Source of the DNA: Fretibacterium sp.
GTDB taxonomy: Bacteria; Synergistota; Synergistia; Synergistales; Aminobacteriaceae
Length of the DNA stretch: 42,730 nucleotides
Direction: 5' to 3'
NCBI GenBank assembly: GCA_012520235.1
Contig: JAAYOR010000052.1
Span: 1-42,730, forward strand
The translations under genes were made by a program, and so were the position numbers. The notes beneath the pieces are model-generated. The model was not told the origin of the DNA and searched no databases. It saw only the letters and a program-made list of their open reading frames with translations. Shown here piece after piece: positions 1,798-40,183 of this stretch (the stretch's first letter is position 1; the number at the start of each line of letters is the position of its first letter).

Positions 1798-4700
1798 TTA
1801 CCTTATCGTCAGGGTCTCAGGCGTCTCTCCCACAAAGGATATCTCAGGATCGTACATCCCGACGGCAGTGACGGGAGGGATGACAAAGGTCCCCTTAGTG
1901 ACCGCTCGGAGGCTGAAGCGATGGGTTTTTGCCTCGGAAAGCCGGTCGACGAAGAGCAGAAGTCGATCGTCCCGTGCCTCAAATCGCCCTATCGGGTACT
2001 CGTTCTCCTCCAGAATCTGTGGGGTCTCTATCTCCAATCCCGCAGGCAGAAGGAAGGCAAGGGCCAGGTTGCTCACCGGGAGGAGGGGATTGAGGGTGAG
2101 ACTTATCTGGACCTCGTCCCCCTGAGCGAACCCCTTGGAGAGGTCGAGCTCCGTCCCGCTCTTGTCTGACCAGAGGACGGCTACTTCCACCCCCTGTTTT
2201 TGAGGCTCGGGCCTGGAGGCAGAGGCGCCGATGAGGTTCCAGGTGTAATATCCCTGTCCCGAGCCCTGGAGGGAAAGGGTCAGGTCGGCCGGGGTCTGAT
2301 CGGAGAGGGGGAGGGAAGCGCTTTGACCGCTCTTAAAGGAGAGGAGCGTTTTGCCGTCGCTGTCCTTGACCTTACCCTCAAGGTTCGCCTTTTCGCTGCC
2401 GGTTTTCAGAAGGTAACGGCCCAGCGCCATGGCTGCCGCCGAGTTCTCCTGAGTGCTGTACCAGCGGTTTTCCTGCCCCCACTTCACCAGCTGTGTCGCC
2501 AGCTTGAGAGCTTCCGGCGCGTTCGGCTCCACTTCCGACCAGAGGGAGAGGAGGAGCGCCGTGTTCCTCACGTCGGAGTCCAGCGTCTCATAGCGGGACT
2601 CGGAGGGGACTTTCCCCGAAGCTCCGGTTCCCAGATCCCGCAGAGCGTCCGCCCGGCCTTCTATGCAGGACGCTGCCCCGGCAAGATAGATGCTCCCGGA
2701 GGGCCACATATTGGCCTTGTTCTCCTCAAGGTACTGGAGCCAGCCAAGGGGCTTCTCTCCGTTCAGGGCCAGGACATAGACTGCATAGGCCTTGGTGGTG
2801 AAGTCATCCTTCTCCTGGGTGGGATAATTATTCCCCGGCATGGAGGCCAGGTAAGCTCTGATCCAGTTCAGGGCCCCCTTCAGCATATCGTCCGGGAAGG
2901 GCACGTCGGCCTTGCGAGCCTCTATCAGGAAATGTGTGGCATAAACGCTGCCCCAGTTGTAGGGCGCCGTGTCACCAGGCCAGCGGGCGAAGGAGCCATC
3001 ATAAAGCTGCATGGATTGGACGCGGGCCAAAGCGGACTCCGTCTTGAGCCTGACAGAGTCATCGTTGACGAGGAGCGGATCCACCTTGGCGATAGCCTCC
3101 GGGAGCACCAGGAACGGCCAGGCGGCAGAGAGCACCTGCTCCAGGCAGCCGTAGGGGTAGCGCAGGAGGAAGCTGATAGCTCTGTTCAAATCCACAGCCG
3201 GCGTGTCCGCAAGCGTGAGGGTCCCCTGAAGTCCCTGCAGGAAGTCTTCTTTGGGCAGCTCAACAGAGGTTTCTCCTGCCTTGAGCAGTCCGGACCCGGA
3301 TTGAGCCGTCACGGGCCATGGGGAGCGGACGGGCAGATCGATGCTCTGCTTAAAGGACTTTGTCTCTCCGTCCTCAAGCCAGGAGGTCGTGACGTTCCAG
3401 ACAGCATTCCCAAGAGTCGAAGCCTTGACGGAGACCGCAGCATTTGCAGAGCCGCCGGGCTCCAGCTCCAGGACAAAACGATGTTCGTCGAGCTCCAGCC
3501 CTCCCTCTGCTACGATGTCAATCGAGACGAGACGGCTCTCCTCCGAGGAGTTGAAGACGGAGATAGGGGCTGAGAAGGTGTCTCCGGGCGCGGCAAAACG
3601 AGGCAAGTCAGGCTCGGTGACGATGCTCCGGGCTATTTGAACCTGCTTTTCCGCCGCTCCGAATCGGGGTCCGGAGGCTGCTACCGCAAAGAGACGTCCG
3701 CGCCCGCTGAATTCGGGGACATCCAGCTCTGCCCTGACCAAGCCGGCCTCGTCAGCTGAAAGCGTGCCTTCAAACAGGGAGAGGATCTTGAAGCGCTGGC
3801 TTCTCTTACCCATCCCGGCCATCGCCCCCATCGCCTCCTGAAGGGCGCCTCCGGCCGGATGCAGGGCTTCCGTAGCCTGAGACTCCAGGGGCATCAGTTG
3901 ATCGTACAGGTCGTATCCCTTAGATCCCATCTGCTTGAATCCCCAGAAGTGGTTCAGGAGGTCGGGGGTCTTGTACTGCGTGAGGTTCAACACGGCATCG
4001 TCGACAAGCGCTAAGGTCACGTCACCCTTGGCGGGGTTACCCTCAGAATCCTTGAGCGTCAGAGTCACGGGGAGAGGCTTTGCTGGCTCTGTCTTATCAG
4101 GCGCCTCCAGGTCGAGTGCCAGGCGGTAAGGGCTCCGGTCTGCCTTCAAAGGCGCGATGCCGACGGCTCGATGGGTGCCCCAAACCTCCTCCTCAATGAC
4201 AGGGCGGATGAGCCACGCGGAGCACCAGGCGTTGGGCATCATTTTTTCCGTCACGGGGACCTCAATGACGGTGTCCGAGGCGGAGACCGTCAGGATCTTC
4301 CGGAAGAGCAGCTCTTCTCCTTCAACATTGAAAAGAAGAAGGCCTTCAAAGGGGGCGCTCAGGGTGACCTTTGCCGTCTCCCCGATCTTGTACTCGTCCT
4401 TATCCAGGGAGATCTCAACCCGGTCCATCAGCTGGGAGCCGCCCCTGTCGGCATACTCGGGGTCGTCGGCGTAAAAGCGCAGGGACGCTCGGGCCATCTC
4501 ATCCTCATCCGATATGCGGATCATATAGGTTCCCCATCGCTCGGGGCGGAAGGTCACTTGTCCCACCCCATCCTTCAGGGTGAAGGTTTTATGCTCCACT
4601 TCGGTGAGCTCTTCGCTGCTCTGCCAGCGGGTGTAGCCGTCAAGCTGCACCAGGTTATAGTTCCAGGAGACGCGATAGAGAGTTGCCGAGAGCTCTCCCG

Positions 4701-7170
4701 GATCCGCAGGGTTCTCCTCGGGATCGATAGCCGCGACTTTGAAGGTCAGATCCCGTTTGACGCTGAGGCTCTCGTTGGTGTCTGCGATGCCCAAAAGCCA
4801 TGGGGTCGGGTAGTAGGGCAGGGTGATGCTCTTGGAGATCCAGCGGCCGCCGGGTTCCATCACGGAGCTGCTGAGGGTCACACCGATGATTGAAGCTGCC
4901 TCCCATTCCGCGTCGAAGAGAAGGCCGGTCGAGCCCTTGCCTTTGTCGTCCAGAACGCCTCCGTTCAACTCACCGGAGACGGTTGAAAAGCGTCGGGTCG
5001 GGTCTCCGAACACGTACCCCTTCCATCGATCCTTGGTGGGGATGAAGTCAGCAGCACGAGCGGTCCAGTCCCCCTTCCAGGTCAGCCCGGCTCCGTCCAC
5101 GCCGAAGAGGTAACGTGCGGTGAGCGCCAGGTTCAGGTCGGTCTTGTGTTGAAGGTACTTTGCATCAGCCTCCAGGTCAACCTCAATGCGCGGCGGAGCG
5201 AAGTCCTCGACGTGGAAGGGCATGACGGCCAGAGGGGAGTCCTCCTTGCCGGGGACCAGTATCGAAGCGCGCCAGAGCCCTGTCATGGCGTTGGGGGGGA
5301 GAGGAAGGGAGAAGAGGCCCGCTCCCTCGTCGCTGAGGTGTAGGGTCTCCCGCCTGAAGAGGCGCCCCAATGGGTCCTGAATGGAGATGAGGACGGGGAA
5401 AGGCTGTGGAGTGCTGATGTCCGCATTGCGCACGATCGTCTTGAATGGGACCGTCTCACCGGTTCGGTATATGTCGCGCGCCGAGAAGAGCATCGCGTCA
5501 TACCCTTCTCTCAGCCAGGGGCGTCCTGCTGTGTCAAATATCTCCCGGCTCAGAAGGTCACGATTGAGCTTCACAAAGGAGATATCATCCTCAAGGGTCA
5601 CGACGGCCAGGGCCGGAGTGCCCTCCTCAGGGTCCCAGGGCTTGTCGCGCTGAATCAGACAGACGCCCTCAGCGTCCGTAAGCCCCTCTGCCAGAACCTG
5701 ATTCGTCTGGCTGTAAATGCGGACAGTTGCGCCCTCAAGCGGTTGAGTGGTCGAGAGGGTGTTGACCCAGGCCAGAGCTCCGTCCTCCCAGAGCCTCACG
5801 ACCAACCCCATGTCGCTCAGGTTGACTATCTGAGAGGTCTCGTCCCAATAGCTCTTGTCCTGATTGGAAACGGAGAGCAAAAAGAGGCCGCGAAGCCCTC
5901 CGGCCAGCTCCTCCAGCGAGAGGCTGCGGCGAATCGTCTCGTTGAGGGGCAGGGAAAGGGTGTAGTCCTTGCTGTAAATTCTGCGGGCCAGATCTTTTTG
6001 GAAGGAGGCGTCTCCATTACTATAACCATCATAATAGTAGCTCTCCCTGGGGCGCAGGACAAAGGGGAGGTTGTTTTCATAAAGACGCCAGAGTTCGACC
6101 TTGATCTTGTTGACATTACGGAGCTCCAGGGGGAGCCGCCCGCCTCCGCTCGGTGAGAGGAAAGTCCCGGGGACGGGAAAGGAGATGAGGGGCGCGAGGT
6201 CCGGCATGATGACGGCCTGTTGATACGCCTCCGCCAGAACGAGACCGTCGGACTTGGAGGGGAGCCCTTTTTTCAGGGTCACCACAAAACGATCCCGCGG
6301 CTTCATCTCGCCACAGAGCTGGATTCTGCCCTCATAGATGGAGTCGATCCTGAATGGGACAGGGGGCTCCAGCTGAATAAAATCTTTGGCCTGGGCCGGG
6401 TCGATGGAGAAATTGGTGTCGATGACGATCCCGCTCTCCCTGGCAAAGAGCGATGAGACGAGGAGCGTCGGGCGCAGGACCACGGTTCTGATGACGTCCT
6501 CCTCAAGACCCAGGTTCCCCGTCTGTCCCGTGAGGCCGGAGGCCAGCTTGACCCTCAGCTTTGTCGGCTTGCTCACTGCTCCGATGCTTAAAGACACGTT
6601 GAGCGACGAGGAAGGCGCCCCGCCGAGGATGCGATACTGCAGAGGTTTGTTTTCTTCATTCAGGACACTAAGGAAACCGGACAGCCTGGAGGGAGAGACG
6701 GGGGCGTTGAAGTTGAGCCTCAGAGAGGCGGTGTTGTCCCAGCCCATGACGGCCTGAAGGGTGTCGAGCATCAGGGAGTCCGTCTGAAAGAAGAACGTCC
6801 CGGGCCCAACCCCTTTGCCCTTCAGGTCCTTCAGCCCGTCCTGAAGTGAGGCCTTATAAGCGGTCCCCGCTTCCAGAGGCGCCAGAAGAGACGCGGAGAA
6901 GGTCTTGGAATCCAGCCACTTGCCCTCCGCCTGGACCGAAGGGCTTATCACAAAGGGGAAGTCCTGAGTACCGACGGTTTTACCCACCTTTGCCCTTTGG
7001 ACCATGGGATTGGTGAAGACTATCTTGAACGCGACGTTGTCGGAGACTCTGCCGCTCGGGGAGAAGGTCTTCACCCCCTGAGGCGTCTCGGCAGCCGAAA
7101 GCCCGGGGGTGAGACACAATAAGAGAAGCAGAAGCCATAGGAACGAGAATTTCTGTCTGAACATATTCAT
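1798..7170 (-). CDS. Bacterial alpha-2-macroglobulin with thioester, exported
   Basis: The protein has 1790 residues, within the usual 1500-2000 of bacterial alpha-2-macroglobulins. These act as protease traps in the periplasm or at the outer membrane. The N-terminus carries a signal peptide, a poly-Leu core followed by LSA-AE, with no clear lipobox, so a soluble periplasmic protein is likely. The thioester motif GCLEQ is intact (Cys1342, Gln1345). A flexible Gly/Ala/Met-rich stretch ending in a basic GKRSQR, around residues 1103-1125, fits the bait region where a protease would cut. Middle segments such as DIYRTGETV and LPPNAMTG match MG-type beta-sandwich domains. The ATG at 7170 has AGAGG directly before it. 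The ATG two codons later (7164) has better spacing and may be the true start. The partner gene pbpC (PBP1C), common next to this family, is absent from the window. Confidence 0.93.
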   Translation of the reverse strand: MNMFRQKFSFLWLLLLLLCLTPGLSAAETPQGVKTFSPSGRVSDNVAFKIVFTNPMVQRAKVGKTVGTQDFPFVISPSVQAEGKWLDSKTFSASLLAPLEAGTAYKASLQDGLKDLKGKGVGPGTFFFQTDSLMLDTLQAVMGWDNTASLRLNFNAPVSPSRLSGFLSVLNEENKPLQYRILGGAPSSSLNVSLSIGAVSKPTKLRVKLASGLTGQTGNLGLEEDVIRTVVLRPTLLVSSLFARESGIVIDTNFSIDPAQAKDFIQLEPPVPFRIDSIYEGRIQLCGEMKPRDRFVVTLKKGLPSKSDGLVLAEAYQQAVIMPDLAPLISFPVPGTFLSPSGGGRLPLELRNVNKIKVELWRLYENNLPFVLRPRESYYYDGYSNGDASFQKDLARRIYSKDYTLSLPLNETIRRSLSLEELAGGLRGLFLLSVSNQDKSYWDETSQIVNLSDMGLVVRLWEDGALAWVNTLSTTQPLEGATVRIYSQTNQVLAEGLTDAEGVCLIQRDKPWDPEEGTPALAVVTLEDDISFVKLNRDLLSREIFDTAGRPWLREGYDAMLFSARDIYRTGETVPFKTIVRNADISTPQPFPVLISIQDPLGRLFRRETLHLSDEGAGLFSLPLPPNAMTGLWRASILVPGKEDSPLAVMPFHVEDFAPPRIEVDLEADAKYLQHKTDLNLALTARYLFGVDGAGLTWKGDWTARAADFIPTKDRWKGYVFGDPTRRFSTVSGELNGGVLDDKGKGSTGLLFDAEWEAASIIGVTLSSSVMEPGGRWISKSITLPYYPTPWLLGIADTNESLSVKRDLTFKVAAIDPEENPADPGELSATLYRVSWNYNLVQLDGYTRWQSSEELTEVEHKTFTLKDGVGQVTFRPERWGTYMIRISDEDEMARASLRFYADDPEYADRGGSQLMDRVEISLDKDEYKIGETAKVTLSAPFEGLLLFNVEGEELLFRKILTVSASDTVIEVPVTEKMMPNAWCSAWLIRPVIEEEVWGTHRAVGIAPLKADRSPYRLALDLEAPDKTEPAKPLPVTLTLKDSEGNPAKGDVTLALVDDAVLNLTQYKTPDLLNHFWGFKQMGSKGYDLYDQLMPLESQATEALHPAGGALQEAMGAMAGMGKRSQRFKILSLFEGTLSADEAGLVRAELDVPEFSGRGRLFAVAASGPRFGAAEKQVQIARSIVTEPDLPRFAAPGDTFSAPISVFNSSEESRLVSIDIVAEGGLELDEHRFVLELEPGGSANAAVSVKASTLGNAVWNVTTSWLEDGETKSFKQSIDLPVRSPWPVTAQSGSGLLKAGETSVELPKEDFLQGLQGTLTLADTPAVDLNRAISFLLRYPYGCLEQVLSAAWPFLVLPEAIAKVDPLLVNDDSVRLKTESALARVQSMQLYDGSFARWPGDTAPYNWGSVYATHFLIEARKADVPFPDDMLKGALNWIRAYLASMPGNNYPTQEKDDFTTKAYAVYVLALNGEKPLGWLQYLEENKANMWPSGSIYLAGAASCIEGRADALRDLGTGASGKVPSESRYETLDSDVRNTALLLSLWSEVEPNAPEALKLATQLVKWGQENRWYSTQENSAAAMALGRYLLKTGSEKANLEGKVKDSDGKTLLSFKSGQSASLPLSDQTPADLTLSLQGSGQGYYTWNLIGASASRPEPQKQGVEVAVLWSDKSGTELDLSKGFAQGDEVQISLTLNPLLPVSNLALAFLLPAGLEIETPQILEENEYPIGRFEARDDRLLLFVDRLSEAKTHRFSLRAVTKGTFVIPPVTAVGMYDPEISFVGETPETLTIR

Positions 7171-20519: not shown

Positions 20520-20711
20520 TTAAAAGATTGCCGGGATACCGGCCTGCCTGCAGAGGGCGTTTGCCGTGATGCGGTCGAAGGTCGTATGGCGTTTGACCGG
20601 AACCATCTTGCCCTTGCCGTTGCTGTAGATGCTGTGATTGCCGCCCTCTCTCTGCAGGAAAAATCCGTATTCTTCCAGGTGCCTCACGAGCTCGCGTCGG
20701 TTAACCGACAT
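20520..20711 (-). CDS. hicA: HicA-family mRNA interferase toxin
   Basis: The protein has 63 residues, typical for HicA. The double-stranded-RNA-binding-like fold is recognised by LVRHLEEYGFFLQREGGNHSIY, with catalytic H26 in GGNHSIY, then the conserved VPVKRHTTF and a C-terminal LCRQAGI. HicA cleaves mRNA when not held by HicB. Its start overlaps the end of hicB by 11 bases. The gene lies convergent to comF, 39 bp from its stop. Confidence 0.93.
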   Translation of the reverse strand: MSVNRRELVRHLEEYGFFLQREGGNHSIYSNGKGKMVPVKRHTTFDRITANALCRQAGIPAIF

Positions 20712-20937
20712 GCGACGCCCTCTCCGTGGGCACAGGGAGAGGTTCGAAGAGGAGCTGAGCCTGAGGCGGGACTTGCCCTGTCTCCAGATAAGCCTTCGTC
20801 ATCTCTTGGGCGGCATCCAGCAACATGGCCCGGCACTCCTCCAGAGTCGCCCCTTCCGTGATGACCTCCGGCCACTCAAGGAGCTGCCCCATGTAACCCG
20901 CCTCTATCTTCGTGTAACAAGCTGTGTAGGTTGTCAT
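20701..20937 (-). CDS. hicB: HicB-family antitoxin, short form
   Basis: The protein has 78 residues from the chosen ATG at 20937, which has AGAGG and GAGGAGG upstream. An in-frame ATG at 21006 would add 23 residues of unconserved sequence. The partial RNase H-like HicB fold is visible: YTACYTKIEAGYMGQLLEWPEVITEGATLEECRAM. It ends soon after LETGQVPP, so the usual C-terminal DNA-binding domain (ribbon-helix-helix or HTH) is absent and autoregulation by direct DNA binding is doubtful. The antitoxin comes first in this pair; in E. coli hicA comes first. Confidence 0.88.
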   Translation of the reverse strand: MTTYTACYTKIEAGYMGQLLEWPEVITEGATLEECRAMLLDAAQEMTKAYLETGQVPPQAQLLFEPLPVPTERASHVG

Positions 20938-21279
20938 CCTCTGTTCTTCCTCCTCATTGATCAAAGTTATCTTGCCCGATTGATAACTCAGGAAAGGTAG
21001 CGACATTCTTGACGGTCATAAAGTTTGCGAGCATAGAAACATCTTCCCCCCTGAGACATTATAACAACGATAACAATAATATTATCTCATTCGCTAATAC
21101 TATCGCATCGAACCATCGACTGGTTAACTTTATGAATGACGAATGACTCCGCACTTCCTTAAAGTCTCGCGCCAGAAACGCCGATAAAAACCCTAGTGAA
21201 GGAAAATGCCATTGTCGGCCAATAAATTTTAATTTTTTATAGAGCTTCAGAGTTTTTCTCAGGGAAGGGGAAGGTTTTC
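20938..21279. other. Divergent regulatory gap between hicB and flgM
   Basis: This 342-bp stretch has no gene. It holds an AT-rich block around 21055-21110 (TTATAATG on the minus strand is a possible -10 for hicBA), the sigma-28 promoter at 21160-21187, and an AT-rich flgM leader ending in a GGGGAAGG ribosome site. Confidence 0.7.
21160..21187 (+). promoter_or_regulatory. Sigma-28 (FliA/SigD) promoter of the flgM operon
   Basis: The -35 box TAAAGTCT (21160-21167; consensus TAAAGTTT) and the -10 box GCCGATAA (21180-21187; exact consensus) are separated by 12 bases, where the enteric consensus is 11. It points toward flgM, whose start codon is 92 bp further on. This fits late-class control in which sigma-28 drives its own anti-sigma factor and the hook-filament junction genes. 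Confidence 0.82.
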
Positions 21280-21575: not shown

Positions 21576-22040
21576 GTGAGAAAGCCGGTTGAAGACCTCG
21601 TCACAGTCATTCTGGATGAGGCCGATTGTCTGGACGAGCTCGTTGAGGTGGTGCAGGATCAGCGAGAGGCTCTGAAGAGCGAGGAGCACGACGAGCTTCA
21701 GGATCTGTTGCTGGAGCTACAGGACCTTCTCTTTGAGGCTAAGGCCATTGAAGTCAGGAGAGAAAAACTGGCGGCGGACCTGGCCTCGCTTTTGGGTTGC
21801 AGCACAAAAGCAGCGGATTTTGAAGCTCTTTTGACCGAGAGGGAGCGCGTCTTTTTTGAAGGGGCGGCAGATCGCCTGACTCAGGCCGTCTTTGCCTTGA
21901 AAGCCGAGATGGTCATCATCGGCGGTTTGGTTGAGCAAAGCGAACGTTTCAGTGCGATGCTCCTTTCAGAGTGGCGCCGCATTGAGGGTGGGATGCCTTC
22001 GGCCGAAGGTTCAGCCGGAGGATTGGATTTCAGGGGGTAG
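21576..22040 (+). CDS. flgN: FlgN-like flagellar export chaperone
   Basis: The protein has 154 residues, mostly helical and acidic, with coiled-coil heptads across LDELVEVVQDQREALKSEEHDELQDLLLELQDLLFEAKAIEVRREKL. This and its place between flgM and flgK identify it as the chaperone for FlgK and FlgL. Sequence conservation of FlgN is low, so the call rests partly on context. GTG start at 21576 with GAGAGG close upstream. flgK starts 6 bp after the stop. The chaperone would have to handle unusually large clients here. Confidence 0.85.
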   Translation: MRKPVEDLVTVILDEADCLDELVEVVQDQREALKSEEHDELQDLLLELQDLLFEAKAIEVRREKLAADLASLLGCSTKAADFEALLTERERVFFEGAADRLTQAVFALKAEMVIIGGLVEQSERFSAMLLSEWRRIEGGMPSAEGSAGGLDFRG

Positions 22041-25088: not shown

Positions 25089-25116
25089 CCGTATTGAATA
25101 GAGGAGGGCCTGCATA

Positions 25117-28100
25117 ATGGCGAACCGCATCACCACTCCGATGGTCTATGGCTCCATGCTGAGCTCCGCTCAGGCCAACTTGAAAACGCTCCTGGATCTG
25201 CAGCGTCAGATGACCACACAAAATAAGTATTCCAAGCTCTCGGACAATCCCGTGGAGATAGCCCGAGCGTTGTCGCTTGAGTCGTCGCTGGTGGCCAACG
25301 AACGGTACACCGCGGCTCACGAGGACTCCGTGACGATGCTCAAGCACTCTCAGAACGCCTTGACCGCCGCCTTGAACATCGTCCAGACCATTCACGAGAA
25401 GGTGGTCTATGCTGGGAACGGGGCCCTCGGGACCTCGGGCGCGGCCATTGCGGATGAGATAGACCAGCTCAAGCAGCAGCTTGTGGACACGCTGAACACG
25501 AGGGTTGCGGGCAAGTACCTTTTTGGGGGGACGGACACCGGGACCGCTCCCTTCCAGATAGATCAATACGGAAACATCCGGTACGTCGGCTCAGATGAGC
25601 GCATCCGGTACGAGATTGACCAGGCTGTCCTGGGTGACGTCTCCTTCACGGGGAAGGAGCTTTTGCCGAACGACGACAAGACCTACTTCATCTGCGGGCA
25701 TGTCCTGCCCCTGGACTGGGTCTGGACGGGTCGGGAGGAGAAAGTGATGATAACGGTCGGCAACCGCACGTTGCCCATCTACATCCCCGAACAGTGGGTT
25801 GACGAGGTGACGACCGGCAAGACCAAGCCCACGGACTACAACGAGTTCCGGGACCCTCAGGAGCTGACCGGCATCACCCTTGATGACGTCGCCACGTTGA
25901 TCAACCGCGCTCTCGTGGAGCAGGGTGTGGACATGCTCCTGACGGCCACGGTGGATAAGGACCTGGACGCGGGGCTGCAGCGCCTCTTCCTGAAGAGCAA
26001 CACGGGGGAGCCCGTCTCGATCGTGGGCTGGCCGGATACGGACTACCTGCCCATGCCTCAGAGCGTGGCGGGGAACACCCTCCCGCGAGACGGTGCAGAT
26101 AATGTAGTCACTCCGGACTGGTCGCACACGATGCTCATCGGGGACGCTGCCCCACAGTTTTCCGGCCTTGACGGGAAATCTCTGATCGTCGTCTCCGGGG
26201 GTGTTTCCACGACCATCGCCCTCACTGCGGCCCAGTCAGACGCAGCCACCCTTCTGGCACATCTCAACACCCATCTGCCTCTTGACGTCAGAGCGACTAT
26301 GCAGGGAGGAAAGCTGGTCCTGACCTCCTCGACTGGAGAAACTATCCAGGTGGACGGGACTGCGGCCCAGATGCTCTTTGGCAACGTCCGGGTCAGCGAG
26401 AAGCCGGAGTATAACGGGCTCATGGGCCTCGTCAATACCTTGGGGTGGCGCGATGACGGGCTTGGCAAAGGCATCCGTATCTCTCTTAATGGGCAGAACT
26501 ACGACTTCACCTTTGCGGGCAAGCGCTCCATCACCGAGCTGATAAACGAGATAAATGAGAAGGTACCCGTCGGGGCAGGAGACCTGCCGGTGGCTTCCCT
26601 CGTCGCCGGGCGCCTGACCCTTCAGTCCACCCTGGGGCCTATTACCGTCACGGACTTAGGGGTGGCAGGGGGCACGGCACAGCTTTTTGGACAAGACACG
26701 ATAGGGAGCTCCACCAGCTCGCTCACCATCAAGCTGGATGAGAAGCACCCCGTGAAGGTCTACATCAACTCCGGGGACGACCTCACGAAGATAGCCACGC
26801 GCATCAACGCTCTTGAGGGCATCTACTCCCGCACCTCTGCCGATGAGGACCAGCTGGTCATCGTCGCCCAGCGTTTCGGGCAGCTTCCGCCCGACCCGCT
26901 CGCGGTGAGCTCGGCTCAGGAGAGCCTTCACTATCCCCCCTTCACCGTGACCGGTGAGGGGATGGCGATGTCCCTCTTCGACTTCACCTACACGGTCGAC
27001 CCGGAGACCGGGCTTGAGACCGGCGTCCTGGGCTCCAGACCGAAGACGCGGCCGGTGGACCACAGCCATATGGACGTCTTTGCCTACCTGGGCATGGAGA
27101 CCGCGCTTAAGAGCGTGGAGTTCCAGATGGGTGAAACATTGAAGGTCGGGGAGTTGCAGAACCCGGGTAATCCTTATGACCCGGTTCACAACCCTTACGT
27201 GGGCAAAGTGCTGCACTGGCGGATCATGAGCGGAGGCCACGTGACCGAGATCAAGCTGAACCCCGGAGAATACACCATGGAGCAGCTGGCCGACAGGATC
27301 AGGAACGCTGGCAGCGGTTGGCTGCAGGCGACGGTCGACGTCTTCAGGACCCCCGGGGTCCCCAGCGAGGACGACCATGAGACGGGGCTGGGCACTAGCC
27401 ACAACGAGGAAAAGGCCACCAGCCGTCTGGTGATCCAGAGCCTGGACGGCTCTCCGGTCACCTTCCTGGACATGAACGATCAGCGTTATGCGGAGGAGAT
27501 GGGGCTGGCCAACTCGGTCCGGACCGACCCGGACATGGGGCTGGAGACGATCTATTTCCCTGAGGCCCCCTGTCTGGACGACGAGCTGGCGGCGCTGCTG
27601 CGGGTCCAGATGACCTGCGGTCGGGCCTTTGACGTCCGCCTGACGCGCGAGGATGTCATCGCAGATAAAGCGACAGGAGAGGTCGACCGAGTGCTCGTGA
27701 TGAGGGAAATAGCCCGGCAGGTCAACGCTCAGGCCGGAGACGAGCTTCTTCGGGTCATCATTCCTGTGGATGACAGCGGCAAGGAGCTCCCGGACTCTGC
27801 CTCTCTGATATCGGTCTCGGGCACGCCCTTCACCATCGCGGACCTCCCCGTATCCGACCCCGCCTGGAAGGACTACTCCTCGGGGATTGCAGCCCAGATG
27901 GGCATCCATTCCGGGGTGACCTCGAACCTGTCCCTTGTTCCTGGGGCGCCTCCCGGGCTCAGGGACGATGAGACGATTGGGGTGACCGGGACGATCCGGT
28001 TTGAATCGCTGGGGCAGAGGGTGGAGATTGATGTCACTGCCGACGACACCGTCAAGGACGTCATGGACCGCCTCCGCGCTCAGGCCGGGGACTGGCTCTA

Positions 28101-29055
28101 CGTGAACTATTTTGACCGCAACATGGGGAACAAGGCAGGTCAGGCAGGGAACTACCCTCTGATATCGATAGCGGCCAAGGACGGCTCCGCCGTCAACGTC
28201 CTTGACGTCAAGGGGACGGTGGCCAGGGAAAAGCTGCTCCTGACCACGGGGATTCAGGGCGCCCAGCCTTTCCTTCAGGCAGATGGGACTCTGAACCCTG
28301 CTCTCTTCTGGAACGAGGGAGATCGCCCTGCTTCGGTCCTGGACCTCTCCGTGGCAGGGTACACTCATACCATCGACCTGACTGCGATGCGGGACATCAA
28401 TGGCAACGGCCACATGGACGCGGAGGACCTCGTCGAGACCATCAACGCCCGGATGCAGGACTACGACGTCCGAGCCGAGCTGAACGCGGACGGTAACCTG
28501 GTCCTGTGGTCTCCGCGCGGCTACACTGTGACAGCTCAGGCGTGGAGGCTTGACCTTGATGGAGTAAGAGACGCCGATATCACAAATGTCTTTTTCGGAG
28601 CAGCCGGGCTTCAGACCACCCCTTATCGGGGCGGCTATAAGTTGGAAGACCCCTTACGGACTGCCCCTGGGATCTATACCCAGAACACCGTCTCCCGGAG
28701 CGGGGCCAACCAGCGTAGGCAGAACTTCTTCGGTGTCCTGGACGACATATCGCGAGCGATACGGTCTGAGAACCGAAAGGCCCTATCCAACATCATGCTG
28801 CCTAAGATCGACCGGTTTATGGACGGCCTGTTGCGAGCCATGTCGCAGGGCGGGGCTCTCCAGACGCGTTACGAGGGCAACATCTCCCGCCTGAAGATAG
28901 ACAACATCATCATGACTGAGACCTACGACGACCTGGTCAAGATTGACCTCTCCAAGATCCCCACGGAGCTGATGATGGCCCAGGCTATTTATCAGGCGAC
29001 CTTGGGGGTCATGGCTCAGGTCATCCAGCCGACGCTTCTGAACTTCCTGCGTTAA
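25117..29055 (+). CDS. flgL: Flagellar hook-associated protein 3 (FlgL), giant form
   Basis: The protein has 1312 residues; FlgL is usually 290-500. The N-terminus RITTPMVYGSMLSSAQANL, QNKYSKLSDNPVEIARALSLESSL and VAGKYLFGGTDT (about 131-141) is canonical, and so is the C-terminus (about 1195-1312, with DDISRAIRSENRKAL and the terminal helices). About 1000 residues are inserted between. The insert reads as roughly seven beta-alpha-beta units resembling the flagellin IN motif (about 353-422, 453-524, 535-585, 700-800, 825-905, 957-1040, 1073-1145); the first two end in the same LFG. A dockerin/EF-type loop DINGNGHMDAED (1093-1104) sits in the last unit. It forms the second junction ring and bears the filament. 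Confidence 0.95.
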   Translation: MANRITTPMVYGSMLSSAQANLKTLLDLQRQMTTQNKYSKLSDNPVEIARALSLESSLVANERYTAAHEDSVTMLKHSQNALTAALNIVQTIHEKVVYAGNGALGTSGAAIADEIDQLKQQLVDTLNTRVAGKYLFGGTDTGTAPFQIDQYGNIRYVGSDERIRYEIDQAVLGDVSFTGKELLPNDDKTYFICGHVLPLDWVWTGREEKVMITVGNRTLPIYIPEQWVDEVTTGKTKPTDYNEFRDPQELTGITLDDVATLINRALVEQGVDMLLTATVDKDLDAGLQRLFLKSNTGEPVSIVGWPDTDYLPMPQSVAGNTLPRDGADNVVTPDWSHTMLIGDAAPQFSGLDGKSLIVVSGGVSTTIALTAAQSDAATLLAHLNTHLPLDVRATMQGGKLVLTSSTGETIQVDGTAAQMLFGNVRVSEKPEYNGLMGLVNTLGWRDDGLGKGIRISLNGQNYDFTFAGKRSITELINEINEKVPVGAGDLPVASLVAGRLTLQSTLGPITVTDLGVAGGTAQLFGQDTIGSSTSSLTIKLDEKHPVKVYINSGDDLTKIATRINALEGIYSRTSADEDQLVIVAQRFGQLPPDPLAVSSAQESLHYPPFTVTGEGMAMSLFDFTYTVDPETGLETGVLGSRPKTRPVDHSHMDVFAYLGMETALKSVEFQMGETLKVGELQNPGNPYDPVHNPYVGKVLHWRIMSGGHVTEIKLNPGEYTMEQLADRIRNAGSGWLQATVDVFRTPGVPSEDDHETGLGTSHNEEKATSRLVIQSLDGSPVTFLDMNDQRYAEEMGLANSVRTDPDMGLETIYFPEAPCLDDELAALLRVQMTCGRAFDVRLTREDVIADKATGEVDRVLVMREIARQVNAQAGDELLRVIIPVDDSGKELPDSASLISVSGTPFTIADLPVSDPAWKDYSSGIAAQMGIHSGVTSNLSLVPGAPPGLRDDETIGVTGTIRFESLGQRVEIDVTADDTVKDVMDRLRAQAGDWLYVNYFDRNMGNKAGQAGNYPLISIAAKDGSAVNVLDVKGTVAREKLLLTTGIQGAQPFLQADGTLNPALFWNEGDRPASVLDLSVAGYTHTIDLTAMRDINGNGHMDAEDLVETINARMQDYDVRAELNADGNLVLWSPRGYTVTAQAWRLDLDGVRDADITNVFFGAAGLQTTPYRGGYKLEDPLRTAPGIYTQNTVSRSGANQRRQNFFGVLDDISRAIRSENRKALSNIMLPKIDRFMDGLLRAMSQGGALQTRYEGNISRLKIDNIIMTETYDDLVKIDLSKIPTELMMAQAIYQATLGVMAQVIQPTLLNFLR

Positions 29056-29139: not shown

Positions 29140-29622
29140 ATGTCTTTAACACTGATGACGGAGCGATTCGGAACAGTTTATTACACGGAAGATGACGTTG
29201 TCTTCTTCCCGCGGGGGTTGCCGGCCTTTGAAAACAACCGGAGCTGGATCCTGGTGGGTGAGGAGGAAAACGCCATCAAATGGCTTCAGAACCTGGAGGA
29301 CGGTTCTCTGGCTATGCCCGTGACGGCTCCCGACGCCGTCTTACCGGACTACAACGCACGCATCCCCGAGGATGAGCTGGAGCTGGTGGGTTCGCTGGAT
29401 CTGGCGGACCTGGCGCTCCTTATCGTCGTCTCCATCCCTGAGGCGGCGCCATGGAACATGACGGCCAACCTCAGAGCGCCCATCCTCCTCAACCTCAAAA
29501 AACGGCGTGCTGTCCAGGTGATCGTCCTGAATGAGGAGTACCCCATCCGGCATGTCGTCTTTCCGGACGACGTGCGCGAAGCGATGAAGCTGAAGGCTGT
29601 CCTGGAAGAGGAGACGCACTGA
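29140..29622 (+). CDS. fliW: Flagellar assembly factor FliW
   Basis: The protein has 160 residues, near the usual 130-160. Motifs VVFFPRGLPAFENN and the later LIVVSIPE, NLRAPILLNLKKRRAVQVIVLNEEYPIRH are characteristic of FliW. FliW binds flagellin and CsrA in turn: free FliW takes CsrA off the flagellin mRNA, so flagellin is made only as fast as it is secreted. Its stop codon TGA shares one base with the csrA start, so the two are translationally coupled and made in step. ATG at 29140 with GAGG upstream. Confidence 0.95.
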   Translation: MSLTLMTERFGTVYYTEDDVVFFPRGLPAFENNRSWILVGEEENAIKWLQNLEDGSLAMPVTAPDAVLPDYNARIPEDELELVGSLDLADLALLIVVSIPEAAPWNMTANLRAPILLNLKKRRAVQVIVLNEEYPIRHVVFPDDVREAMKLKAVLEEETH

Positions 29623-39247: not shown

Positions 39248-40183
39248 ATGCAGGAAGTCAAAAAGGTCATCACGGAAGTGGGGACCAACGAATGGCAGGT
39301 CGTCGTCTTTTTTCTGGGCGACCAGCCATTCGCCATCAACGTTGATAAAACCCGGGAGATACTGCGTTGGCCCGGGAGCCGCGTCATCCCCGATACCTCG
39401 ACAGCCCTGGCCGGGATAACCTCCGTGCGGGGCGAGATCTTACCGATGGTCGATCTGCGCATTTTCCTGGATATCGAGCCCCAGACGCCGCTGGAGCAGA
39501 GCAAGGTCATCGTGGCAGAGTTCAACGACATCAAGCTGGGCTTTGTTGTGGACGCCGTGGAGCGGCTCTATCGGATCAGCTCGGAGGACCTGGACTCTAC
39601 ACTGACGGGCAAGTATCTGGGAGACTGGATCCTCTACGTCATCAAGAGGGACAGCCGCAACGTCCTGCTTTTAGACTACGAGGCCATCGTCCAGGCCATC
39701 AGCCCGGAGCTGTCCATGCAGAACAAATGGGATCCCTCCCGCGCGCCGGAGTTCACGCAGGGCATAAGCAACCCGGGGGACTACCGCATCATCGTTGCGG
39801 AGGATTCGCCCCTGATTCGGAAGCAGCTCAAGGAGACCCTGGTCTCAGGGGGGTTCGTCAACCTTCTACTCTGCTCCGACGGCAAAGAGGCCTACGACGC
39901 GATCACCCGTGAGGGCGCTCGTTGCGACCTCTTGATAACAGACGTGGAGATGCCCCGTCTGGACGGGTTGGCTCTGACGAGGCGCCTGAAGGAAAATTCG
40001 GCCACCAGCGATATCCCCATCATCGTCTTTTCTTCAATTATGGCGGAGGACATCAAGGTGAAGGCAGCAAGCGTCGGCGCCCGCTATCAGATAGCAAAGC
40101 CCGAGATTTCGAAGTTAGTGGAGTACGTGTCTAAGGTGATCCTGGAGGAGCAGGAGGCAAAAGCTCAGAGAAGCGTGGGCTGA
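39248..40183 (+). CDS. cheV: Chemotaxis protein CheV (CheW domain fused to response regulator receiver)
   Basis: The protein has 311 residues. The CheW-like domain covers about 15-160 (FFLGDQPFAINVDKTREIL, VRGEILPMVDLRIFL, VIVAEFNDIKLGFVVDAVERL). A receiver domain follows (about 179-300) with acidic pair E185-D186, phospho-acceptor D232 in LITDVEMPRLDG, S262 and K284. CheV couples receptors to CheA and takes part in adaptation through phosphorylation. ATG at 39248 has GAGGG about 9 bases upstream. A 6-bp hairpin (39214-39228) lies just before it. It is not linked to other che genes here; the flagellar operon is 4 kb upstream. A probable terminator follows. Confidence 0.95.
   Translation: MQEVKKVITEVGTNEWQVVVFFLGDQPFAINVDKTREILRWPGSRVIPDTSTALAGITSVRGEILPMVDLRIFLDIEPQTPLEQSKVIVAEFNDIKLGFVVDAVERLYRISSEDLDSTLTGKYLGDWILYVIKRDSRNVLLLDYEAIVQAISPELSMQNKWDPSRAPEFTQGISNPGDYRIIVAEDSPLIRKQLKETLVSGGFVNLLLCSDGKEAYDAITREGARCDLLITDVEMPRLDGLALTRRLKENSATSDIPIIVFSSIMAEDIKVKAASVGARYQIAKPEISKLVEYVSKVILEEQEAKAQRSVG

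Follow-up and report, generated by a model that had tools for sequence, protein, structure and literature searches.

A giant FlgL of Fretibacterium with an insert of eight predicted IN-like units, and the order-wide occurrence of such inserts in the Synergistales

In Salmonella the hook-filament junction protein FlgL (hook-associated protein 3, HAP3) forms a layer of 11 subunits between FlgK and the filament, and the complex of Campylobacter jejuni is built alike (PMC12221982). The C. jejuni FlgL, of about 750 residues, has a bulky outer domain (D2) that was seen by cryo-electron microscopy (PDB 9GSX; PMC12221982). The FlgL of Xanthomonas has a one-domain D2 that was proposed to reinforce the contacts between the FlgL subunits and that has no experimentally assigned role (PMC6155364). 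Giant flagellins have arisen repeatedly, and the survey that established this listed the Synergistetes (Aminomonas) and removed FlgL proteins from its set (PMC6248924). Here we describe the flgL gene on a stretch of 42,730 nucleotides of Fretibacterium sp. (Synergistota, Synergistales; contig JAAYOR010000052.1 of assembly GCA_012520235.1), to which we refer in full as the window. The gene encodes an intact FlgL with ordinary ends, which enclose an insert that can be read as a string of eight homologous IN-like units. Such an insert is an order-wide trait of the Synergistales, newly recognised here, and we consider it probable that the amplified D2 units build a bulky structural collar that braces the hook-filament junction. 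An earlier note, made from the sequence alone, knew of no such structure for FlgL. In fact, an oversized D2 is known from C. jejuni and a one-domain D2 from Xanthomonas, so that the window protein is an extreme new variant; the open-licence literature yielded no description of a Synergistales FlgL, of a FlgL of such size or of such a string of units.

The 1312 codons of flgL form one uninterrupted open frame with an ATG start. The whole protein matched the FlgL equivalog model TIGR02550 at 202 bits, well above the cut-off of 127.2 bits. Flagellin_N was found at residues 5-140 and Flagellin_C at residues 1230-1311, the latter with 20.8 bits slightly below the 23-bit cut-off of Pfam, and D1 matched the fold of solved FlgL fragments in a Foldseek search (template-modelling score TMt about 0.5). 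Family models run over the open reading frames (ORFs) of the window showed that flgL adjoins flgK and that flgN and fliW are nearby, in a late flagellar cluster with the order flgM-like, flgN, flgK, flgL, fliW, csrA-like, a PseD/Maf-type flagellin modification gene and flagellin. Orthologues of full length (about 1300-1330 residues, 57-64% identity) occur in other genomes of the Synergistaceae, among them Fretibacterium fastidiosum and several metagenome assemblies. The many full-length orthologues together with the single frame exclude an assembly error and a frame error, including the joining of two genes that the earlier note had named as fatal to its proposal. A reading of the protein as a giant flagellin (a filament protein of more than 1000 residues) was rejected as well, since the equivalog match, the flgK context and the separate flagellin genes contradict it. 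Antisense ORFs overlap flgL.

The insert comprises about 1060 residues (about residues 141-1199), slightly more than the 1000 first estimated. Its profile compared with itself gave off-diagonal matches down to an E-value of 2e-22, and eight units (U1-U8) could be delimited from profile links and the predicted structure, where the earlier note had counted roughly seven. The eight unit profiles join as one family with pairwise probabilities of up to 99.1% (U5-U7), followed by U2-U3 (98.0%), U2-U8 (97.6%), U3-U8 (97.1%), U1-U5 (96.4%), U4-U7 (94.3%), U1-U8 (94.1%), U5-U6 (89.0%) and U4-U8 (87.1%); the best of 56 reversed-profile controls reached 7.5%. The AlphaFold2 model, made for residues 48-1245 with 49 sequences, had a mean predicted local distance difference test score (pLDDT) of 88.4 and a predicted template-modelling score of 0.81. 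It predicts the same order of elements in all eight units, namely a hairpin, a helix, three strands and a short (helical) tail, in line with the recurring strand-helix-strand pattern that had been noticed by eye. The motifs QMLFG (residues 418-422) and QLFG (residues 522-525) are the tails of U2 and U3, and had correctly been taken as the ends of two successive units. The high pLDDT and the recurring unit structure rule out a single unrelated fold or disorder for the insert.

The nature of the units was indicated by the Flagellin_IN family (PF07196), which matched the window protein at residues 1085-1130, in U8, with 24.9 bits (cut-off 22.7 bits). When offered as isolated fragments U8 reached 18.0 bits and the other units about 13 bits or none. 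PF07196 was also found in 18 of 27 related proteins and in 13 of 43 single units (E-value below 0.5; six species), being the sole family to recur in more than two; for units of the U2/U3/U8 type the count was 8 of 13. All units of the window protein are linked by profile to U8, which is an IN motif, either directly or via other units. Moreover, the U2/U3/U8 profile matched the outer domains of solved flagellins, namely those of Pseudomonas aeruginosa flagellin (8erm, E-value 5.5e-8), C. jejuni FlaA (6x80, 3.6e-6) and a Helicobacter pylori flagellin (9yh1, 1.6e-5). The whole model matched the folds of H. pylori FliD (6iwy, 9.5e-8), the chains of about 750 residues in the junction complex of C. 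jejuni (1.7e-7), Xanthomonas FlgL (2.6e-7) and Legionella FlgL. A search of viral folds returned baseplate and tail proteins, whose TM to the query did not exceed 0.1 and which were dismissed as generic beta-rich matches. The proposal of a string of IN-like modules was thus borne out, where 'IN-like' is the accurate term since most units alone stay below the Pfam cut-off.

The distribution of the insert was surveyed in 188 Synergistota genomes, in which FlgL lengths were taken as open frames. All complete FlgLs found in the Synergistales are giant, with about 887-1487 residues (open frames of 890-1503) and 5-9 units, versus 402-412 residues in the five genomes outside the order. One frame of 1787 residues includes an out-of-frame stretch over flgK, the true length of this FlgL being about 1198. 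Among the short frames (332-838 residues) eleven were checked, all of which stop at contig ends except for one frameshift pair; in that genome flgL is broken by a frame change into frames of 838 and 399 residues (G049:C10:4448-8112), either as a pseudogene or through a sequencing error. According to the unit models, the smallest giant FlgLs have the five units U1 and U5-U8, to which U4 is added in those with six units, U3 in those with seven and U2 in those with eight, and a few have nine. The FlgL outside the order holds one IN-like unit (about residues 204-287), whose profile matched U1 (95.9%), U7 (94.8%), U5 (93.9%) and U4 (92.3%), versus at most 1.4% for the reversed profiles. In a tree of D0/D1 the single-unit FlgLs are split from the giant ones by one branch with a support of 100/100. 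Ordinary FlgL elsewhere carries at most one D2 domain (PMC6155364), and the direction was therefore probably from one unit to many, i.e. amplification and not loss. In all, the tree requires a minimum of 11 changes in unit number, and therefore units were both gained and lost. A tandem copy of U8 in one FlgL (L064 of G089, U8 region 937-1112) represents a recent gain, and two others (L014, L039) have possible additional units after U8, likewise recent. The gene immediately preceding flgL is flgE and not flgK in three families (G067:C4:219651-222525, G069:C1:75932-78819 and G083:C175:1811-4707).

Among the close relatives of the window the core units share 0.59-0.70 identity versus 0.47-0.54 for D0/D1, and in the distant families 0.41-0.49 versus 0.48-0.67; the greatest variability is that of U2 and U3. 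Outer identity divided by core identity gave 0.82 for FlgL versus 0.55 for flagellin, and this quotient was higher for FlgL in 167 of 171 genome pairs, which are non-independent. The core units thus diverge little faster than their own D0/D1, as expected under structural constraint. A strong purifying constraint on the insert as compared to flagellin outer domains was rejected, as it holds only relative to the core of each protein. The growth of FlgL might instead have been largely neutral, with an outer face that tolerates duplications of surface domains, as perhaps in the giant flagellins, which arose repeatedly (PMC6248924). We find this improbable. The frequent changes in unit number and the variability of U2-U4 speak for it, whereas the five core units are found in every examined FlgL of the order with identities near those of D0/D1, no reversion to the short form was seen in the order, and the hook protein and FlgK are larger too.

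The sizes of the other axial proteins were compared in the same genomes, again as open frames, which are upper limits. FlgE has 440-507 residues outside the order and 584-985 within it, where frames of 462 and 675 occur together in one genome. For FlgK the lengths are 700-724 outside and 814-1030 within the order, with longer frames of 1394 and 1528 left untrimmed. For the main flagellin the ranges are about 760-841 outside and 756-1014 inside, and for FliD 782-792 and 481-1850. Hook and junction proteins are therefore enlarged together in the order, whereas the main flagellin and the cap are not systematically so. The FlgK of the window has about three stretches with a unit-like order of elements (AlphaFold2, pLDDT 70.7), one of them lineage-specific, with weak profile links. 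A match of FlgL size to the size of the main flagellin was rejected as the sole cause, since flagellins of 760-841 residues coexist with a FlgL of 402-412 residues, and a match to FliD size is inconsistent across the phylum. The latter bears on another explanation, in which the units would be a docking platform that keeps the FliD cap at the junction during the placement of the first flagellins. In C. jejuni the bulky D2 of FlgL adjoins an extra D4 domain of FliD (PMC12221982), and in one genus (g16) a FlgL of 6-7 units goes with FliD frames of 1535-1850 residues. However, FliD has 481-503 residues in several families whose FlgL has 5-6 units, and 782-792 residues in the genomes outside the order with their ordinary FlgL, which indicates that the sizes of the two proteins are unlinked across the phylum and makes cap docking quite improbable as the role of the string. 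The long FliD frames of genus g16 were found in G036, G046, G041, G044, G027 and G015. In the genome of the window another flagellin, with intact Flagellin_N and Flagellin_C, reaches up to 1965 residues (L045:1450-7347, reverse strand, contig C48). Similar frames of about 1840-1970 residues, located apart from the main flagellin, were seen in at least seven further Synergistota genomes.

A further characteristic of the insert is the loop between the hairpin and the helix of U8, which matches the complete 12-residue PROSITE pattern of the EF-hand (PS00018). In a set of 49 FlgLs the pattern matched 20 times, in each case at the U8 site, where 0.70 matches were expected overall from shuffling. 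A complete EF-hand (helix-loop-helix, usually paired) had no Pfam match in the window protein and scattered weak EF-hand or dockerin matches in the relatives; unlike a paired EF-hand, the U8 loop is a single copy and is preceded by a strand. Judged by this pattern, the loop may bind calcium. The earlier note saw the insert as a long spoke or an adhesive ring. The projection is supported by the position of the insert, that of D2, whereas the adhesive role found no support. An adhesive or ligand-binding ring, directed at host surfaces, mucus, protists or adjacent cells and folding with calcium like many adhesins, would agree with the outer position, with a multi-domain string of variable copy number and with the EF-hand-type loop, and one of the carriers, F. 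fastidiosum, is an oral species. Nevertheless we regard it as unlikely: family searches of the single units detected no adhesin domain in any of them, a flagellum has only about 11 copies, which lie far from its tip, the core units show no hypervariability when compared with the core of FlgL itself, and all complete Synergistales FlgLs seen carry the string, regardless of family. The core of units shared by all FlgLs of the order, in combination with the larger hook protein and FlgK, favours a structural collar over adhesion.

The collar could have originated and could function as follows. An ancestral D2 of one IN-like unit would have been multiplied, which would have enlarged FlgL about three-fold and given eight units in tandem in the window protein. 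D0 and D1 would assemble as in ordinary FlgL, as a ring of 11 subunits that lies between FlgK and the first flagellins. As D0/D1 are intact, the units must lie outside the FlgL layer, and the eight units would thus sit around the ring and, together with the outer domains of FlgK and of the hook protein, both enlarged, form a bulky collar round the junction. Through contacts between neighbouring subunits such a collar would brace and shield the joint of soft hook and stiff filament, and in many species calcium bound by the loop of the last unit might stiffen one domain. Several observations weigh against the collar. The units U2, U3 and U4 come and go across the order, and deletion of a unit might be neutral. 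Flagellins of 760-841 residues accompany ordinary as well as giant FlgL, so that a simple match to filament width fails to explain the growth. In absolute terms the FlgL core units (identity 0.42) do not exceed the flagellin outer domains (0.45), and the sample outside the Synergistales consists of five genomes only. A more far-reaching form of the proposal, which we consider possible but doubtful, is that the co-expanded FlgE, FlgK and FlgL make up an unbroken outer sleeve that covers both hook and junction. The FlgL ring would then hold about 55-99 IN-like units (5-9 x 11), be calcium-stiffened in many species and be tuned by gain and loss of units, at a size undescribed in any flagellum.

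The features of flgL and its neighbours are listed in the table. Elsewhere in the window a CheV-type fusion of a CheW domain with a response regulator receiver is encoded near the flagellar cluster (39248-40183). An ORF of 101 residues at 20701-21006 (reverse strand) resembles a HicB-type antitoxin by eye only, and a bacterial alpha-2-macroglobulin of 1790 residues with a bait region is encoded at 1798-7170 (reverse strand).

Table. Features of the giant flgL and of the neighbouring flagellar genes (positions in the window; residues of the protein in brackets)
Feature	Position	Strand	Basis
flgL, giant hook-filament junction protein, 1312 residues	25117..29055	+	TIGR02550, single frame, orthologues
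Ribosome-binding site of flgL, AGAGGAGG	25100..25107	+	read from sequence, rated good
D0/D1 N-terminal helices (1-140)	25117..25536	+	Flagellin_N, AlphaFold2 helices, Foldseek to FlgL D1
D1 beta-hairpin and neck to insert (141-204)	25537..25728	+	alignment, AlphaFold2 strands
U1 (205-323), order-wide	25729..26085	+	profile links, AlphaFold2, unit models
U2 (350-428), lineage-specific, tail QMLFG	26164..26400	+	alignment, profile links, AlphaFold2, unit models
U3 (446-532), lineage-specific, tail QLFG	26452..26712	+	alignment, profile links, AlphaFold2, unit models
U4 (531-620), in most of the order	26707..26976	+	profile links, AlphaFold2, unit models
U5 (655-804), order-wide, long N-terminal loop	27079..27528	+	profile links, AlphaFold2, unit models
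U6 (820-937), order-wide	27574..27927	+	profile links, AlphaFold2, unit models
U7 (953-1049), order-wide, closest partner U5 (99.1%)	27973..28263	+	profile links, AlphaFold2, unit models
U8 (1071-1161), order-wide, Flagellin_IN above cut-off	28327..28599	+	Pfam, profile links, AlphaFold2, unit models
EF-hand-type loop of U8, DINGNGHMDAEDL (1093-1105), putative calcium site	28393..28431	+	PROSITE PS00018, alignment
D1/D0 C-terminal helices (1200-1312)	28714..29052	+	Flagellin_C (1230-1311, 20.8 bits), TIGR02550
flgK, enlarged, 1013 residues	22047..25088	+	TIGR02492, 298 bits
flgN, export chaperone of FlgK/FlgL	21576..22040	+	PF05130
flgM-like ORF, 94 residues	21280..21564	+	position and sequence, by eye only
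fliW	29140..29622	+	PF02623
csrA-like ORF, 98 residues	29622..29918	+	sequence, by eye only
fliC, flagellin, 784 residues	32967..35321	+	PF00669/PF00700

The outer domains of FlgL are usually regarded as optional decoration. The Synergistales, in which FlgL always has 5-9 units and the hook protein and FlgK are larger, represent a natural experiment on the outer face of the hook-filament junction. The single-unit FlgL of the related families is the presumed starting point, which gives a clear and testable prediction for the removal of domains. In addition, a real giant FlgL can hide among the long proteins that are discarded by flagellin surveys.

Compared with the described systems, the window protein is the same protein as the FlgL of Xanthomonas (5ZIZ/5ZJ0) and C. 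jejuni (9GSX), with the D0/D1 ends and an outer domain inserted in D1. The D2 of Xanthomonas is one beta-sandwich, whereas the window FlgL has eight predicted IN-like units in about 1060 residues; the largest FlgL models in NCBIfam have 749-827 positions. With the D2/D3 domains of the Flagellin_IN type (PF07196) in flagellins and FliD the units share the consensus, the order of elements and the predicted fold. They differ in that eight stand in tandem, most of them below the Pfam cut-off, each with one or more further strands and a tail and one with an EF-hand-type loop. The giant flagellins (PMC6248924) are likewise axial proteins that have grown in the outer domain by extra, repeated domains. 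They are filament proteins, however, whereas the window protein is a junction protein, and the families outside the Synergistales pair a large flagellin with an ordinary FlgL.

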